Below, piece by piece: positions 14,404 through 29,659 of a stretch of 64,000 bases of DNA. Positions within the stretch are counted from its first letter, which is position 1, and every line of letters begins with the position of its first letter. The stretch comes from Candidatus Desulfovibrio intestinipullorum. GTDB lineage: Bacteria; Desulfobacterota; Desulfovibrionia; Desulfovibrionales; Desulfovibrionaceae. The notes under the pieces are model-generated. The model searched no databases. It saw nothing but the letters and a program-made list of their open reading frames with translations, and was not told where the DNA came from. The position numbers and the translations under genes were made by a program. Location of the stretch: positions 17,974-81,973 of the forward strand of contig DXHV01000063.1 in the NCBI GenBank assembly GCA_019113165.1, written 5' to 3'.

Positions 14404-14616
14404 GCAGGGAGAGAGGCTGAAGGAAAGGGAAAAAGGGGGAAGGGAGAGAGGCAGGATACGGAAGGAAGGGGAAAAGTGCCAGTGCCTGGCCGGCAGGGGG
14501 ATGGCTCCTGCCGGGCGTTGCGAAGCCATGCCCTTGCTGTCGCCACGGCCGGCGCCAGGGCGGCTCTTTTTGGCAAAGGCCTGGCAACGCAGGAGTCCGT
14601 GCAGGCAGCAGGGGAT

Positions 14617-16041
14617 TCAGCGCGCTGCCGGTGCGCTGCGGAAATAGCGCGGTATCTCTATGCTCGCCGTGAGCCCTCCCCCGGGATTGTTGCGCAGGGA
14701 AAGCTTTGCCTGATCCAGGGCCGCCATATTGCGTGCAATGGAAAGACCCAGTCCGGTTCCGCCAAGGTGGGTGTTGCGCGAGTTGTCCAGGCGGTAATAG
14801 GGCATGAACACGCGCTCGATCTTGTCGTCCGGAATGCCCGGCCCATTGTCGGAAATTTCTATGCGTACCATGTCTTCGACGACAAGAATGCGTACCCTGG
14901 CGCTGTCGGCATAGGTCAGGGCGTTGTTGAGCAGATTGTTCACGCAGCGCTTCAGGCAGGAAGGCCGTGCCTTGACAAGCAGGGGGCCCGCCACGGGGTC
15001 CGCCTCGAGGGGCACATGCGTTCCGTCAAGAGCAACGTCGTCCACAATGCTCTGCAAAAAGGCCCGGATGTCCAGAGGAACCTGCTTTTCTGCCGAGGTG
15101 TGGCTCTTTGCGAAATCAAGCCCCCTGGCCACGAAAAGTTCGAGATCGTCCAGATCCATGCCCAGCTTCTCGCTTTCCGCCCTGGGATGGAGGTGCTCGA
15201 GGCGCAGGCGCGCACGGGTCAGCGGCGTGCGCAGATCATGGGCAATGGCCGTCATGAGGCGGTTGCGTTCCTCGAAACTTGCACAAATGCGTTCACGCAT
15301 GAGATTGAAGGACTGGGCGACCTCCCGCACTTCCCTGGTCCCTGTTTCCGGAAGGGGCTGAAAGATTTCCGGATTGCGGCCAAAGGCATCGGCACATGCG
15401 GCAAGCTTGCGCAGGGGCTTTGTGGAATGCAGAACAAGAGCGGTCACCAGCGCTGCCAGAGCGATGACCACAAGCAGTGTCAGATACCTGTAGACGAGTG
15501 TTTCCCTGGCGCCGTGATCGCGCTTGTGCCCGACAGTCATCCATGTTCCATCCTCAAGGCGTATGGCCGTGAGCATGTAGGGGACGGGATAGCGCGGATC
15601 CGGATCCTTGTTGCCGCCAAGCGTCTTGATCAGGAATTCCCGCTCGATACCTGCACGGGCAAAGCTTTGTGCAAGAGCCTGGGAGTACAGTCTGATGGGC
15701 TTCGAGTCGACAGGGGTCATGTCTGGCCTTGTGTCCGTATAGCGGAAGAAGACATCCACGCCTGCATCGCCATTGGAGTAGACACTGCGTATGATATCCA
15801 CATAGGCCTGCCGCTCTTCCCTGGGCAGTCGTTCCAGAATGCGCGTGTAGACGACCATGCGCATGGCGGCTTCCTGTATGCCCAGGCCGCGGTGAAAGGT
15901 GCGCAGTTCGCTCCAGAGCACGGAATTGGCCAGTTCAATGCCTGCCAGACCCAGGACAAGGAGCACGACAAGTCGTGCGACCAGGGTATCGAAGGGGCGC
16001 CAGCGCAGAATCTTGCGCCAGATGTTATTTGATCTTGTCAC
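14617..16041 (-). CDS. Two-component sensor histidine kinase (EnvZ-like, HAMP)
   Basis: Two TM segments; H-box AIAHDLRTPLTRARLRLEHL; N/G boxes NNLLNNALTYAD, DNGPGIPDDKIERVFMPYYR, GTGLGLSIARNM. Confidence 0.93.
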   Translation of the reverse strand: MTRSNNIWRKILRWRPFDTLVARLVVLLVLGLAGIELANSVLWSELRTFHRGLGIQEAAMRMVVYTRILERLPREERQAYVDIIRSVYSNGDAGVDVFFRYTDTRPDMTPVDSKPIRLYSQALAQSFARAGIEREFLIKTLGGNKDPDPRYPVPYMLTAIRLEDGTWMTVGHKRDHGARETLVYRYLTLLVVIALAALVTALVLHSTKPLRKLAACADAFGRNPEIFQPLPETGTREVREVAQSFNLMRERICASFEERNRLMTAIAHDLRTPLTRARLRLEHLHPRAESEKLGMDLDDLELFVARGLDFAKSHTSAEKQVPLDIRAFLQSIVDDVALDGTHVPLEADPVAGPLLVKARPSCLKRCVNNLLNNALTYADSARVRILVVEDMVRIEISDNGPGIPDDKIERVFMPYYRLDNSRNTHLGGTGLGLSIARNMAALDQAKLSLRNNPGGGLTASIEIPRYFRSAPAAR

Positions 16042-24206: not shown

Positions 24207-27113
24207 CTAGAAGAGGGAGGTGCAGCTCCAGCCCAGGGACCGGGCGACTTCGCCGGCCCTGGCGCCGCCAATGACGCAGACATGGCCCTTTTCGGCCACT
24301 TCCTGCATGATGTCGGCAAAGGCCCGGAAGTCTTCCACCCTGGTGGCCAGGATTTCTTCGCGCTGGGTCTGCAGCTCCTCGTTGCTGATGCCGCTCAGGA
24401 GCCGCAGCAGGGAGACATTGCCGCGGGCATCGGGCAGGAGGTAGGCATCCACATCGCCAATGGTGCCCACAATGGCCCTTGTGAGCTCGTCTTTGGAGAG
24501 GCTGATGCGGGAGAGGTAGGAGGCAATGCCGTCATAGGCCCTGAGGGTGGCCTCCACATTGGGATCCCGGTAGCTTGAGCAGACGAAGTTGCCGGAATAG
24601 AGCTCCTGGGAGCAGAAGGCGCCGTAGGCGCCGCCCAGCACGCGCACCTGTTCCCACAGATAGCTGCGGCTCAGATGGCGGACAATGACCCGCACCGGGC
24701 CGTGCAGCTCGCCATAGCCCAGCTGCTTCAGGTTGCAGCCCTTGGCCACGTAATTGACCTGGCTTGGGGAGGTGAAGACTTCGGCTGCGGGGCGGCTGGC
24801 CAGGGAGAGGACCTGGCTGCCGTCGGCAGCGGCTGCCCTGGGCAGGCTGGCCCAGAGGCTCTGTGCCTCGGCAAAGACCCTGGCAATCTGCCCCTCTTCG
24901 CCCACACAGTTCACATAGCCCGGGCGGGCGGCCACAAGGAAGTGGCGCAGGTCTTCGAAATCTTCCAGCAGCCTCGGGAAGGCGTCTTCCCAGGACTCCA
25001 GGCGCGAGCGGATGGTGGACAGGGAGCTTATGCCGGACATGAGATCGGACATGTAGGCGTCCGTGGTGTAGTGGGAGCGCACCCTGAGAGATGCGGCCGC
25101 ATGGCCCGAGGAAATGAGGCCCTGTTCAAGGCGGGCCTTGTCCTCAAGGAGCATTTCCCTGAGGCGCTGGCCAAGGAGGCTCTGATCGGTCACGGGCTCG
25201 AGGAGCATCTCCTTGAGCAGGGCGAAGAGGTCGCCTGTCTTGTCGGCCACGGCCTTGCCGGCCAGGGAGAGGTAGCAGCGTACCTCGCCGTCCTTGCGGG
25301 TCACAAGGGTCGTGTCGGCGCCAAGGCCGCCTGTCTTGGCATCGATGAGCGCGCCAAGATCGGTATAGTCGTGGCGGGCCGTGCCGACTTCCCTGAAGGA
25401 GCGCAGGAAGAGGTTCAGGGAGGGCAGCAGGCGCACGGGCAGCTTGGGCATGGGCACAAGGAGGTTCAGATAGGCTATGCCCCTGGTGGGCTGCTCGTGA
25501 GCCACGCAGGTAAGCGAGCCGTCCTCGTGTACATCCCTCCTGATGAAGCGGCTCTGTGCGGGCAGATCTTCAAGGCCCAGGCTCGGAATGGAGGCCAGTG
25601 CCTCGGGGCTGTCCGGAGTGCTCTGCGCCTTCTGAAGCTCTGTGCAGATGGTGCACACTTCCTGCTTCCGTCCCTCGTCCAAGGAGGCCTGTATGCCGGC
25701 AAGGCGCTCGGCTTCCTCCCTGGCCAGCCGCTCGGCCATGTCGGTCTGGGGCTGCAGGATCACCGTGGCCCTGCTGGGATTGTCCAGGAAGAGGGTGCGC
25801 AGGGCTTCCTCGAAGACGCGCTCGCCCCTGGCCAGGCGATCCTTGATGTGCTGCAAGGGTGCTTCCCAGGCAAGGGAAGCCAGGGGATCGTGGTCATAGA
25901 GCCAGGTGGACAGGGACTGCAGCATGGCGGCAAGGCCGCGGGGGAAGGATCCGAAATTGCTCTCCCTGTAGGCAAATTCCACGGTATTGACGGCTGCTTC
26001 CACAAGGGAGGGATCAATGCCGTCCCGGGCAAGCTCTTCCAGGGTGCTCTGGATGAGGGCCTCGGCCCTGGGGATATTGTCCCAGGCAATGCCCTTGAGG
26101 CCGGTGGAATAGAACGTCTGGGCCAGATCCGTTTCCAGGCCGCCGCCCACGGTGTCCTCGCCAAGACCGGAGGAAATGAGAGCCCTGCGCAGAGGGGAGC
26201 CGGGCATGCCTTCCAGAATGTGCTCCAGCATGCTCAGGATCATGGTGCGTTCCAGATCGCCGCGGATGCCGGTGAGCCAGTTCATGGTGAAGAGGCAGGA
26301 ACCATCCTTTTCGGCCGCATAGGGCTTGACGATCCTGGTTGGCGCGCTGAAGGCCCGTTGCAGGGGAATGCGGGAATCCACCTCGCAGCGGGTCTGACCC
26401 TCCAGGGCCCTGGCCACAATGTTCAGGCGCTCTTCCTCGGGATCATCGCCCCAGAAGAAGAAACGGGCATTGGAGGGATGGTAGTAGCGGCTGTGGAAGT
26501 CCCTGAACTCCTCGTAGGTGAGAGAGGGGATCTCGGCCGGATTGCCTCCGGAATCAAGGCTGTAGAGCGTGTCCGGGAAGATGGCGTGCTGGCTTTCCTC
26601 GGCAATGCGCGAGTCCGGGGAGGAATACACGCCCTTCATCTCGTTGTAGACAACACCCTTGTAGGCCCAGGGGCCGTCCGGCGTGCCGGCCTCTATATGC
26701 CAGCCCTCCTGGCGGAAGATGTTCTCGCTGATGAGCGGATGGAAGACGGCGTCGATGTAGACGTCTATAAGATTGTAGAAGTCCTGCAGGTTGGCGCTGG
26801 CCACGGGGTAGCAGGTCTTGTCAGGAAAGGTGAAGGCATTGAGAAAGCTCTGCAGGGAGCTTTGCAGAAGAACCAGGAAGGGTTCCTTCACAGGATACCT
26901 GTCCGAACCGCACAGCACGGAATGCTCCAGGATGTGGGCCACGCCCGTGGAATTTTTGGGCGGCGTGCGGAAGGTCACACCAAAGCATTTGTTCTCGTCG
27001 TCATTGCAGACGGAAACGATTTCTGCACCGGTTGCCACATGTCTGTAATAACGTGCCCTGCCATTGACTTCGGCGAGTGTGCGTTCGTCAATGAGTGTGA
27101 AGTCGGTCTTCAA
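24207..27113 (-). CDS. M16C-family zinc metallopeptidase (PreP/Cym1-like)
   Basis: Inverted zinc motif HILEH in GVAHILEHSVLCGSDRYPVKEPF; 968 aa; TTG start with AGAAGGAG SD. Confidence 0.92.
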   Translation of the reverse strand: MKTDFTLIDERTLAEVNGRARYYRHVATGAEIVSVCNDDENKCFGVTFRTPPKNSTGVAHILEHSVLCGSDRYPVKEPFLVLLQSSLQSFLNAFTFPDKTCYPVASANLQDFYNLIDVYIDAVFHPLISENIFRQEGWHIEAGTPDGPWAYKGVVYNEMKGVYSSPDSRIAEESQHAIFPDTLYSLDSGGNPAEIPSLTYEEFRDFHSRYYHPSNARFFFWGDDPEEERLNIVARALEGQTRCEVDSRIPLQRAFSAPTRIVKPYAAEKDGSCLFTMNWLTGIRGDLERTMILSMLEHILEGMPGSPLRRALISSGLGEDTVGGGLETDLAQTFYSTGLKGIAWDNIPRAEALIQSTLEELARDGIDPSLVEAAVNTVEFAYRESNFGSFPRGLAAMLQSLSTWLYDHDPLASLAWEAPLQHIKDRLARGERVFEEALRTLFLDNPSRATVILQPQTDMAERLAREEAERLAGIQASLDEGRKQEVCTICTELQKAQSTPDSPEALASIPSLGLEDLPAQSRFIRRDVHEDGSLTCVAHEQPTRGIAYLNLLVPMPKLPVRLLPSLNLFLRSFREVGTARHDYTDLGALIDAKTGGLGADTTLVTRKDGEVRCYLSLAGKAVADKTGDLFALLKEMLLEPVTDQSLLGQRLREMLLEDKARLEQGLISSGHAAASLRVRSHYTTDAYMSDLMSGISSLSTIRSRLESWEDAFPRLLEDFEDLRHFLVAARPGYVNCVGEEGQIARVFAEAQSLWASLPRAAAADGSQVLSLASRPAAEVFTSPSQVNYVAKGCNLKQLGYGELHGPVRVIVRHLSRSYLWEQVRVLGGAYGAFCSQELYSGNFVCSSYRDPNVEATLRAYDGIASYLSRISLSKDELTRAIVGTIGDVDAYLLPDARGNVSLLRLLSGISNEELQTQREEILATRVEDFRAFADIMQEVAEKGHVCVIGGARAGEVARSLGWSCTSLF

Positions 27114-27306
27114 GAGGGTTCTCCTTCTGTGGGTTGGAAACGTTCAGGTCTTTGGAACATGTATCGGGAACTGGAAAAAGTGCTGTTCTGAGAAGCCAGG
27201 ATTGCATGTGCTGGCAGCATTCTTGCCAGCTCTTGAGGCATCTGTCCAGCCGGGACAGATGCCTTGTCTGCCCTGAAAGAGGGCGAGGGCCTTCCATCCT
27301 GCGGAC

Positions 27307-27344
27307 AAAAAAAGTGACCTGAAGAGTGTGCTTCTTCAGGTCAC
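27307..27344 (-). terminator. Strong rho-independent terminator (minus strand)
   Basis: Stem GTGACCTGAAGA (27314-27325) / TCTTCAGGTCAC (27333-27344), 12 bp perfect; U-tract from AAAAAAA at 27307-27313. Confidence 0.9.
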
Positions 27345-27808
27345 GAGGCTCACAGAAAGGTTTGGGGAGAGGGGTTTGCGCGTACTGGAGTGTTCGGGAG
27401 GAGAGGGGCTGGTCGGGTCCTTTGGGCAGGGGCCGTCCTGTGCCTTGGATAAGGACGGGCCGGCAAAGGGAGCGACTCTATGTTTGCTGGCCTGAACGGC
27501 CAGATTTGCAAGGTGTTGTGGCCAGTTTGGCCGTTGAGGTTCTGGAAGGTTTGGCAGTGGCCCCCATGGGGCGGCTGCATGCCCGCAGGGGCTGTATGAT
27601 ATCCGCCAGGCTTTTCCGGTACAGAAGGGAGTGACCCCGGAAGGAAGGGCGGCTTGCAGAGAGTGAGGAGATGGGCGGTATGCCAAGGGGGGCCAGGCAT
27701 ACCGCCCGGCAAGGAGCAAACATGGAGCTTCAGCTCCCGGCATGATGGGAAGGAGTACCGCCCTGAGGGATTGGGCATGGGGGGCGGTATCAGCTGAACT
27801 CGTTCACG
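27307..27808 (-). ncRNA. Putative sigma-54-dependent structured C-rich non-coding RNA (about 500 nt)
   Basis: Starts downstream of a GG-N10-GC promoter and ends at a 12-bp hairpin with seven U. Multiple stem-loops with C-rich loops, e.g. 27673-27684/27696-27707. All three minus frames are open over long stretches without a credible SD or family. Confidence 0.6.
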
Positions 27809-27817
27809 CCCAGTTTA

Positions 27818-27836
27818 TAGCAACAAGCGTGCCAAA
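27818..27836 (-). promoter_or_regulatory. Sigma-54 (-24/-12) promoter, minus strand
   Basis: Minus strand TTTGGCACGCTTGTTGCTA: TGGCACG-N4-TTGCT, GG-N10-GC spacing. Confidence 0.8.
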
Positions 27837-27942
27837 CTTGAAAATATTTAGCTTGTATTCTGATATTATTGCATTTTTAGTGCTTTTTCAACCGGGAGGC
27901 TCTTCTGTGACATGCTTCTGCCGGACAGATTCATGAGCAGTC

Positions 27943-27965
27943 CACTGTCTAGAAATCAGACAGTG
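27943..27965. promoter_or_regulatory. Perfect inverted repeat between divergent sigma-54 promoters; candidate enhancer-binding-protein site
   Basis: CACTGTCT-AGAAATC-AGACAGTG, 8-bp arms; about 122 bp from one promoter and 138 bp from the other. Confidence 0.6.
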
Positions 27966-28099
27966 CCGGCCGGCTGTGTGTGAAAGCTATCCATCCCGGG
28001 TGTCCGATTTGGCGACAGGCCCGGAGAGATTTCTCTCAAAAGGGGGCTACAAAGACGGCAACGGGCGACCCGGGGCGGGCTTTGCAAGTAAAAACAGGT

Positions 28100-28118
28100 T
28101 TTGGCACGCTTCGTGCAT
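28100..28118 (+). promoter_or_regulatory. Sigma-54 (-24/-12) promoter, plus strand
   Basis: TTTGGCACGCTTCGTGCAT: TGGCACG-N4-GTGCA with GG-N10-GC spacing. Confidence 0.7.
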
Positions 28119-28127
28119 ATTGAAAAA

Positions 28128-28304
28128 TGTCCCGGAGGTGACGTTCCGGGATACTTCCGAACGACAATACTGCCATTCGCATAGCAATCCTCCCTTAACA
28201 TCCCAAATTTCCCCAAGTATCGGCAATCCCTCTCCAACATAAGCTTTCTCCTCCTTGTAAGCCTCCATCCCCCAAAGCCCGTTTCCCCCAAGGAAGCGGG
28301 CTTT
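28128..28304 (+). ncRNA. Putative sigma-54-dependent C-rich sRNA with anti-Shine-Dalgarno motifs (about 177 nt)
   Basis: Follows the plus sigma-54 promoter. 5' hairpin TCCCGGA/TCCGGGA; unstructured CCUCCC, CCCUCUCC, CUCCUCCUU, CCUCCAUCCCCC motifs; ends at hairpin 28274-28304. Confidence 0.55.
28274..28304 (+). terminator. Hairpin terminator of the plus-strand C-rich RNA
   Basis: AAAGCCCGTTTCC-CCCAA-GGAAGCGGGCTTT, 13-bp stem with one G-U; only a short U-run (UUUCU). Confidence 0.6.
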
Positions 28305-28416
28305 CTGATCGTTCCCGAACAGCTCGTCCGAACACCCTTGTCCGCACAGGTCCGGGTGCCATGGCAGTCTGCCCGTGAATCGGACTGCCGGACAATTTGA
28401 CAGTCATGTGAACTAC

Positions 28417-28446
28417 TTGACGTGAAAAGGGGCAGGAGCGTATGCT
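28417..28446 (+). promoter_or_regulatory. Sigma-70-like promoter for terC
   Basis: TTGACG-N18-TATGCT, about 200 nt upstream of the terC ATG. Confidence 0.5.
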
Positions 28447-28648: not shown

Positions 28649-29659
28649 ATGGAACATATCGGCTTTCCGACAGAAACAGTTCTGCTGTTTGTCGTTGTCG
28701 TCCTGCTCTCGCTTTTTCTTGATCTGTATGCCCACAAGCGCGACGAGGATATTTCCCTCAAGAGCGCCTGCCTGTGGTCCGTCTTCTGGGTGCTGCTTTC
28801 CGTAGGCTTCGGCATCTATCTGTATGTGCACCACAGCGCGGAAATGGCCAGCCTCTTCTTTACCGGCTATGTGCTGGAAAAGGTGCTCTCTGTTGACAAC
28901 CTTTTTGTCATCATGGCCATCTTCTCCTGGTTCTCCATCCCCGGCAAGTACAGGCACAGGGTCCTGTACTGGGGCGTGCTCGGTGCCATTGTCTTCAGGG
29001 CCATCTTCGTGGCCATAGGCACGGAACTGCTCTCCTTCGGCCCCTACATGGAAGTGATCTTTGCCGGCATGGTGGGCTACACGGCCTTCATGATGCTCAA
29101 GAAGCGCGAGGAAAAGGAAGAAATCAAGGACTATTCCAACCACATTGCCTTCCGCATGGTGCGCCGCTTTTTCCCCGTCTGGCCCAAGCTCAGCGGCCAT
29201 GACTTCTTCCTGCGCCGCTCCGAAGCCGAGGCCCAGTCGGTCAGGGAAGGCGTGCCCCTGGAAGGCCTTGGGCACAAGTGCGCCTATGTGGCCACGCCGC
29301 TCTTCCTCTGCCTGGCTGTCATCGAAGTGAGCGATGTCATGTTCGCCTTTGACTCCGTGCCCGCGGTCATTGCCGTGAGCCGCGAGCCCCTCATTATCTA
29401 CTCGGCCATGATCTTCGCCATTCTCGGCCTGCGCAGCCTCTACTTTGTCCTGGAATCCCTGAGCAGCCGCCTGGTCTACCTGGAAACCTCTGTGGTCGTC
29501 CTGCTCTTCTTCATCACCATCAAGCTGCTCCTCTCCGCCTGCAACCACCTTTTTGGCATAGGCTTCGAGATTTCCCCGCATCTCTCCCTGGTCATCGTGC
29601 TCGCCGTGCTGGTCATAGGCATAGTGGCCTCCTTTGTGGTGCCCAAAAAGCAGCAGTAG
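28649..29659 (+). CDS. TerC-family integral membrane protein
   Basis: LEKVLSVDNLFVIMAIFSWF, VIEVSDVMFAFDSVPAVIAVSREPLIIYSAMIFAILGLRSLYF. Start placed at ATG 28649; the upstream ORF extension lacks TM/family signal. Confidence 0.93.
   Translation: MEHIGFPTETVLLFVVVVLLSLFLDLYAHKRDEDISLKSACLWSVFWVLLSVGFGIYLYVHHSAEMASLFFTGYVLEKVLSVDNLFVIMAIFSWFSIPGKYRHRVLYWGVLGAIVFRAIFVAIGTELLSFGPYMEVIFAGMVGYTAFMMLKKREEKEEIKDYSNHIAFRMVRRFFPVWPKLSGHDFFLRRSEAEAQSVREGVPLEGLGHKCAYVATPLFLCLAVIEVSDVMFAFDSVPAVIAVSREPLIIYSAMIFAILGLRSLYFVLESLSSRLVYLETSVVVLLFFITIKLLLSACNHLFGIGFEISPHLSLVIVLAVLVIGIVASFVVPKKQQ

Follow-up and report, generated by a model that had tools for sequence, protein, structure and literature searches.

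A conserved promoter-dyad-promoter feature lies in an intergenic region of Candidatus Desulfovibrio intestinipullorum, where two sigma-54 promoters point away from each other and share one central inverted repeat. Judged from the comparison of related genomes, this feature is real, and we regard it as reasonably probable that a ZraR regulator, acting with sigma-54 from the shared dyad, co-activates two divergent multi-seed small RNAs that would repress translation in metal or envelope stress. In the mechanism that we propose, the region would be an intergenic regulatory island with two small-RNA genes back to back. ZraS would sense metal or envelope stress, and the phosphorylated ZraR-like regulator would bind the dyad as an enhancer and contact, by looping, a sigma-54 holoenzyme on each side at distances of about 121 and 149 bp, whereupon both promoters would open. 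The plus RNA (~185 nt) would end at a hairpin before terC and the minus RNA (~500 nt) before prep; both would expose CUCC, UCUCCUCC and CCUCCUU stretches complementary to Shine-Dalgarno (SD) sequences and prevent the start of translation on a group of mRNAs that most likely have to do with the envelope or with metals. We infer transcription, binding of ZraR, induction by stress, base-pairing and the identity of the targets from the DNA. Small RNAs transcribed with sigma-54 are few and come mostly from enterobacteria, vibrios or pseudomonads, and the locus would add a conserved case in gut sulfate reducers for which a likely regulator and a likely signal can be named.

Layout of the locus

The window is the whole stretch of DNA that was analysed (64 kb, G000:C37:17974-81973); it belongs to a genome of 2,765,059 bases (2.77 Mb) in 87 contigs that is 98% complete and not closed. 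The features of the locus are collected in Table 1.

Table 1. Features of the divergent locus and its neighbours (positions within the window; all RNAs are predicted).
Feature	Position	Strand	Remarks
Prep-like M16C metalloprotease gene (neighbour)	24207..27113	-	
Predicted minus small RNA	27307..27808	-	~500 nt, several CUCC motifs
Intrinsic terminator of minus RNA	27307..27344	-	perfect 12-bp stem + T7
Hairpin of minus RNA, GGGCGGTATGCC..GGCATACCGCCC	27673..27707	-	pairs maintained by double changes in relatives
Minus-strand sigma-54 promoter TTTGGCACGCTTGTTGCT	27819..27836 (reads 27836-27819)	-	predicted start ~27808; kept in 5 relatives
Central dyad CACTGTCT-AGAAATC-AGACAGTG	27943..27965	.	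candidate UAS common to both promoters; probable ZraR-like site
Plus-strand sigma-54 promoter TTTGGCACGCTTCGTGCA	28100..28117	+	GG 28103-28104, GC 28115-28116; predicted start ~28128; kept in 6 relatives
Predicted plus small RNA	28128..28310	+	~185 nt
5' hairpin of plus RNA	28128..28153	+	contains invariant GUGACGUU
Anti-SD cluster UCUCCUCCUU..CCUCC of plus RNA	28247..28266	+	stretch predicted unpaired
Terminator-like hairpin of plus RNA, AAAGCCCGTTTCC..GGAAGCGGGCTTT	28274..28304	+	stem conserved, U tract short
Sigma-70-like promoter of terC	28417..28446	+	downstream of plus-RNA hairpin
terC/alx family metal-homeostasis membrane protein gene	28649..29659	+	TIGR03718 above cut-off

By sequence match, both promoters have the GG-N10-GC spacing with TGGCACG- and TTGC-like elements that is typical of sigma-54 (consensus match 14/14 for the minus and 12/14 for the plus promoter), the consensus in Desulfovibrionales being tGGcacg / tTGCt (PMC4641369). 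Perfect matches to TTTGGCACG-N5-TGC (= TTTGGCACGNNNNNTGC) number six in the 2,765,059 bases of the genome, and two of these six form the divergent pair. From the centre of the dyad (27954), the two -24 GG elements are 121 and 149 bp away, which is the usual distance of an enhancer-binding protein (EBP) upstream of a sigma-54 promoter. The sequence-only reading, from which this analysis started, had found both promoters, with their outer ends set one base too far, and its view that they point apart agrees with the orientation of the sites; its dyad at 27943-27965 is exact to the base, and the AT-richness that it reported for 27840-27885 is plain in the sequence. By eye, no IHF-like site in this AT-rich stretch is conserved among the relatives. 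It had moreover judged that neither side has a credible protein gene, which holds locally; beyond the terminators, the promoters face prep (start 27113) and terC (start 28649).

Perfect 8+8 inverted repeats with loops of 4-12 occur 46 times in the 64-kb window (nested ones counted singly), so that a repeat of this kind is common by itself and the case for the locus rests on conservation. A relaxed dyad pattern was not enriched in the genome relative to a reversed control. The dyad locus is the genome's best match to CTGTCYAGAAATNRGACAG, with one other match at up to two mismatches (C17:14609), which was rejected as chance; by eye, it falls inside an apparent cobalamin riboswitch. This stretch (L083, G000:C17 ~14540-14680) is flanked by a ribosomal-protein-S1-like gene and a tRNA, and no gene is obvious downstream of it.

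Conservation among relatives

Relatives were compared by anchoring on the flanking genes, terC and the M16C protease gene prep, in 79 genomes of the genus. A plain DNA search with the whole region recovered the dyad region in one relative, the rest being too diverged. The dyad together with both promoters is present in the window genome, G090, G016, G087 and G093, the last with two dyads, while G073 combines both promoters with a degenerate dyad, and G072 has the dyad and the plus promoter only. The whole arrangement is hence found in six Desulfovibrio genomes (G073 included), and the plus half in a seventh. A scan of related genomes for the paired promoters plus dyad had been suggested beforehand, and it is answered by this recurrence. 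Three records of uncultured Desulfovibrio contain the exact dyad, too; the remaining matches, in unrelated organisms (one of them, L172, was inspected), were taken as chance. In all seven paired-type genomes, terC lies directly downstream of the plus RNA, and this position makes a functional tie to a metal-stress regulon possible.

The two predicted RNAs

The minus RNA is predicted to be shorter (~300 nt) in G016, G087 and G093. Across five sequences, 9 of its 28 consensus pairs show double-sided compensatory change, and at the place that matches its terminator, G090, G016, G087 and G093 have hairpins with T tracts whose sequences differ. Between this terminator and prep, a perfect 12-bp inverted repeat, AGGCATCTGTCC-N5-GGACAGATGCCT, is present at 27236-27264 of the window. 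Three parts of the plus RNA do not vary among the relatives, namely, the GUGACGUU of the 5' hairpin, the UCUCCUCC stretch and the greater part of the terminator stem; a terminator scan did not flag the plus hairpin, which has a short U tract. A common origin of the plus and minus RNAs was considered and rejected, as only short, weak matches connect them.

Were the transcripts long 5' leaders with regulated terminators, belonging to terC on the plus and to prep on the minus strand, rather than trans-acting RNAs, this would suit the direction of the promoters, the constant place of terC, the fact that TerC/Alx genes are often leader-controlled (TIGR03718 is named 'R_switched_Alx') and the short U tract of the plus terminator. 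However, the minus terminator is strong and canonical and stands 200 nt before prep, and stems persist despite sequence change. Furthermore, terC appears to have a sigma-70-like promoter of its own (TTGACG with a TATAAT/TATAGT-like -10 element is visible in G073 and G072, too), 11 other genomes have a UAS and sigma-54 unit beside prep without terC, and riboswitch families remained unmatched, all of which makes leaders a distinctly unlikely explanation.

As trans-acting RNAs, the reading that we prefer, the two transcripts stand out by their anti-SD motifs. Anti-SD hexamers exceed the shuffle mean in 14 of 14 RNAs (p <= 0.05 in 10 of the 14), with the caveat that the shuffle tests overstate independence because the genomes are kin, and the antisense strand holds 0-2 of them. 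For the window genome itself, the enrichment is significant in the plus RNA (p 0.046) and not in the minus RNA (6 against 3.0 expected, p 0.15). Nucleotides of the motifs are predicted to be unpaired at 0.66-0.97, compared with 0.43-0.57 for the remainder. An SD-preceded ORF common to the paired-type RNAs was not found; single unshared ORFs occur only in the minus RNA of the window genome (G000) and the plus RNA of G072. The Rfam search gave no match to a riboswitch, to GlmY/GlmZ or to alpha-r14, and two chance lncRNA matches below the gathering score. Likewise, Hfq (PF17209) was not found in the window genome as assembled (98% complete, not closed), for which the locus suggests a route of small-RNA action.

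The candidate regulator

A link to ZraR emerged from a UAS matrix that was trained on prep-linked dyads only. In other clades, this matrix marks tandem, enhancer-like sites before the prep-linked sigma-54 promoter, with a spacing of 41-42 bp. A genus-wide search with the genome's own ZraP-like protein yielded 25 loci with a sigma-54 promoter before zraP, and in the 220-bp regions upstream of these promoters the matrix scored 16.2 on average, whereas dinucleotide shuffles gave 2.0 +/- 0.5 and 18 further sigma-54-like sites of the genome gave 2.6. The matches lie at recurrent distances (134, 142, 95, and 82 bp). The genome's own AcoR-linked promoter scored 14.3, and a few scores of 19-20 arise by chance in the 64-kb window. 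By matrix match, the dyad and the zraP promoters have the same activator site, and 22 hand-picked sites give the joint consensus TGTYYARAAAWNRGACAG. Since the same kind of site precedes zraP, the two RNAs seem to form an RNA branch of the zraP stress response.

The genes for the kinase and the regulator themselves lie elsewhere (G000:C47 ~20.7-23.7 kb). The kinase that adjoins the C47 regulator scores above the ZraS equivalog cut-off (502.2 vs 479), and the regulator has ZraR as its best NCBIfam match, at 570.7, below the equivalog cut-off of 760. In 22 genomes, a comparison of coordinates places zraP and the orthologue of this regulator within about 5 kb of each other; in the window genome, zraP and zraSR are not neighbours, and zraSR itself showed neither a UAS nor a sigma-54 site. 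The orthologue is present in 18 of 18 genomes with the prep-linked unit and in 44 of 61 others (Fisher p 0.009, kinship uncorrected), a co-occurrence that is weakly informative because the regulator is nearly universal in the genus. From the shared motif, the adjacency and the co-occurrence, we infer that the regulator of the dyad is ZraR-like.

EBPs of this type mostly bind TGT..ACA-like dyads, so that a shared motif is no proof of a single regulator. The same layout and the same RNAs could conceivably be served by another EBP, for example, an orphan PspF-like or PAS-type protein, to whose site the ZraR sites happen to be similar. About nine EBPs with sigma-54 activator domains are encoded in the genome, and the sites of Fis-type EBPs resemble one another, but the match at the zraP promoters is strong, positioned and seen at 25 loci while the other sigma-54-like sites of the genome are unmatched, and zraP adjoins zraSR in the 22 genomes mentioned. 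Three of the EBPs (C2, C64, C51) have local sigma-54 promoters of their own and were judged less likely regulators for that reason. GlrR, which controls the sigma-54 small RNAs GlmY and GlmZ at TGTC-N10-GACA (PMC4987338, PMC8745638), recognizes a site that differs in spacing only, and it is on this spacing, N9 in the dyad vs N10, that GlrR was rejected. Taken together, we find another EBP fairly unlikely. An EBP-like response regulator encoded at L076 (G000:C2:18672-19172) lacks a GAFTGA-type loop and is therefore probably no sigma-54 activator.

With ZraR as the favoured regulator, the proposal of the sequence-only reading that one regulator drives two divergent non-coding transcripts explains the locus best, given the conserved promoter pair and dyad, the terminators, the lack of a conserved ORF and the recurrence of the dyad at other sigma-54 promoters. 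Elsewhere in the genome, two sigma-54 promoters bear the site within 250 bp, C21:8581 and C21:14727, both in the region L219. At 8496-9731 of contig C21, a sigma-54 promoter, accompanied by up to three activator-like sites, is followed by a small secreted Pro/Arg/His-rich ORF and then by a ZraP-like Metal_resist gene. At 14622-14985, the promoter C21:14727 and the same activator site precede a pyrimidine-rich stretch without coding sequence that contains two hairpins as well as a T-rich terminator and is probably a third small RNA of the regulon.

Comparison with known systems

Sigma-54-driven small RNAs form a known category (GlmY, CrcZ, and those of D. vulgaris); what appears to be new, as far as searched, is the arrangement as divergent twins and the link to ZraR. 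A search of the literature on divergent sigma-54 small RNAs, with most subscription papers outside its scope, found nothing that matches. The claim that no such system is described in sulfate reducers was too broad, as four sigma-54-dependent ncRNAs are known from D. vulgaris (DVU0653, DVU0679, DVU1419, and DVU2359 regulons; PMC4641369, PMC3333781). These are likewise EBP-controlled and from Desulfovibrionales, and DVU1419 ties an ncRNA to an 'envelope stress' regulon; however, a divergent pair with a common dyad was not found described among them. In the GlrR/QseF-GlmY/GlmZ system of Enterobacteriaceae, too, a two-component EBP and sigma-54 drive small RNAs from a TGTC..GACA dyad with a tie to the envelope, but the spacer is N10 in place of N9 and no divergent pair is served by one dyad.

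The ZraPSR system of E. coli and Salmonella shares the ZraS/ZraR-type proteins, the divergent sigma-54 promoters and a small periplasmic chaperone with the system considered here. In contrast, the E. coli ZraR regulon as listed comprises zraP, zraSR and mgtA without a small RNA (PMC7657598), and the locus suggests a post-transcriptional arm for ZraPSR. In rhizobia, RNAs with several anti-SD seeds have been described (PMC10746234); in alpha-r14 / NfeR1, the seeds of a single RNA are redundant and lie in unpaired regions. Those seeds are exact CCUCCUCCC copies in three hairpins under a sigma-70 promoter, whereas here CUCC, UCUCCUCC and CCUCCUU variants lie in linkers, and CCUCCUCCC in three hairpin loops is not a feature of the locus RNAs. 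Finally, CrcZ and CrcY of Pseudomonas are sibling sigma-54 RNAs driven by the EBP CbrB (PMC8871633) that also contain repeated short motifs; unlike the divergent pair, they come from separate loci and titrate Hfq/Crc. The locus is also a simple setting in which to ask whether a single enhancer dimer site is able to serve two promoters simultaneously.

The same place in other clades

In the genus at large, the prep-side unit has other outputs. In G008, G046, G048, G083, G085, G086 and G088, the sigma-54 unit is accompanied by a small ORF, and a signal-like N-terminus is present in all four ORFs that were read (G008, G046, G048, and G085). G006, G052, G080 and G081 have a sigma-54 promoter with three tandem sites, and in the two of these four that were examined, G006 (L067) and G052 (L097), the RNAs are long, structured and CCUCC-rich. 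Because the unit yields a small ORF elsewhere, the output of the switch varies between clades, and the same unit with other outputs beside prep suggests that the switch is older than its present RNA output.

These observations bear on whether the RNAs titrate a protein in the manner of CrcZ, or encode small proteins, in place of pairing with SD regions. Repeated short motifs are indeed also a hallmark of titrating RNAs such as CrcZ, but the motif repeated here resembles anti-SD sequences in particular and is predicted to be unpaired, and Hfq, the known partner of CrcZ, was not found; small secreted proteins are encoded in the syntenic units of other clades, and an SD-preceded ORF of 33 aa is present in the G006-type RNA, as opposed to the paired-type RNAs, in which no such ORF is conserved. 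Titration or a coding function is accordingly quite doubtful for the pair. Staying with anti-SD pairing, one may go further and more tentatively imagine that a ZraR-type stress system has gained an RNA arm, in which two divergent Hfq-independent anti-SD RNAs from one dyad and a third, unlinked RNA (G000:C21 ~14753-14985) would form a broad translational brake, while in other clades the same switch at the same place would lead to a small secreted protein; we deem this broader picture possible rather than probable.

Small ORFs are found upstream of prep at L044, L046-L048, L050, L053 and L065, and those read (L044, L048, L050, and L065) have an MNRRQFF...NGDGTGPDGRGPR-like start. The RNAs of L067 and L097 have in common a 33-aa ORF with an SD sequence (MEH..FLTVRATAAAAWPLCCLGPRQTAVAWTA).
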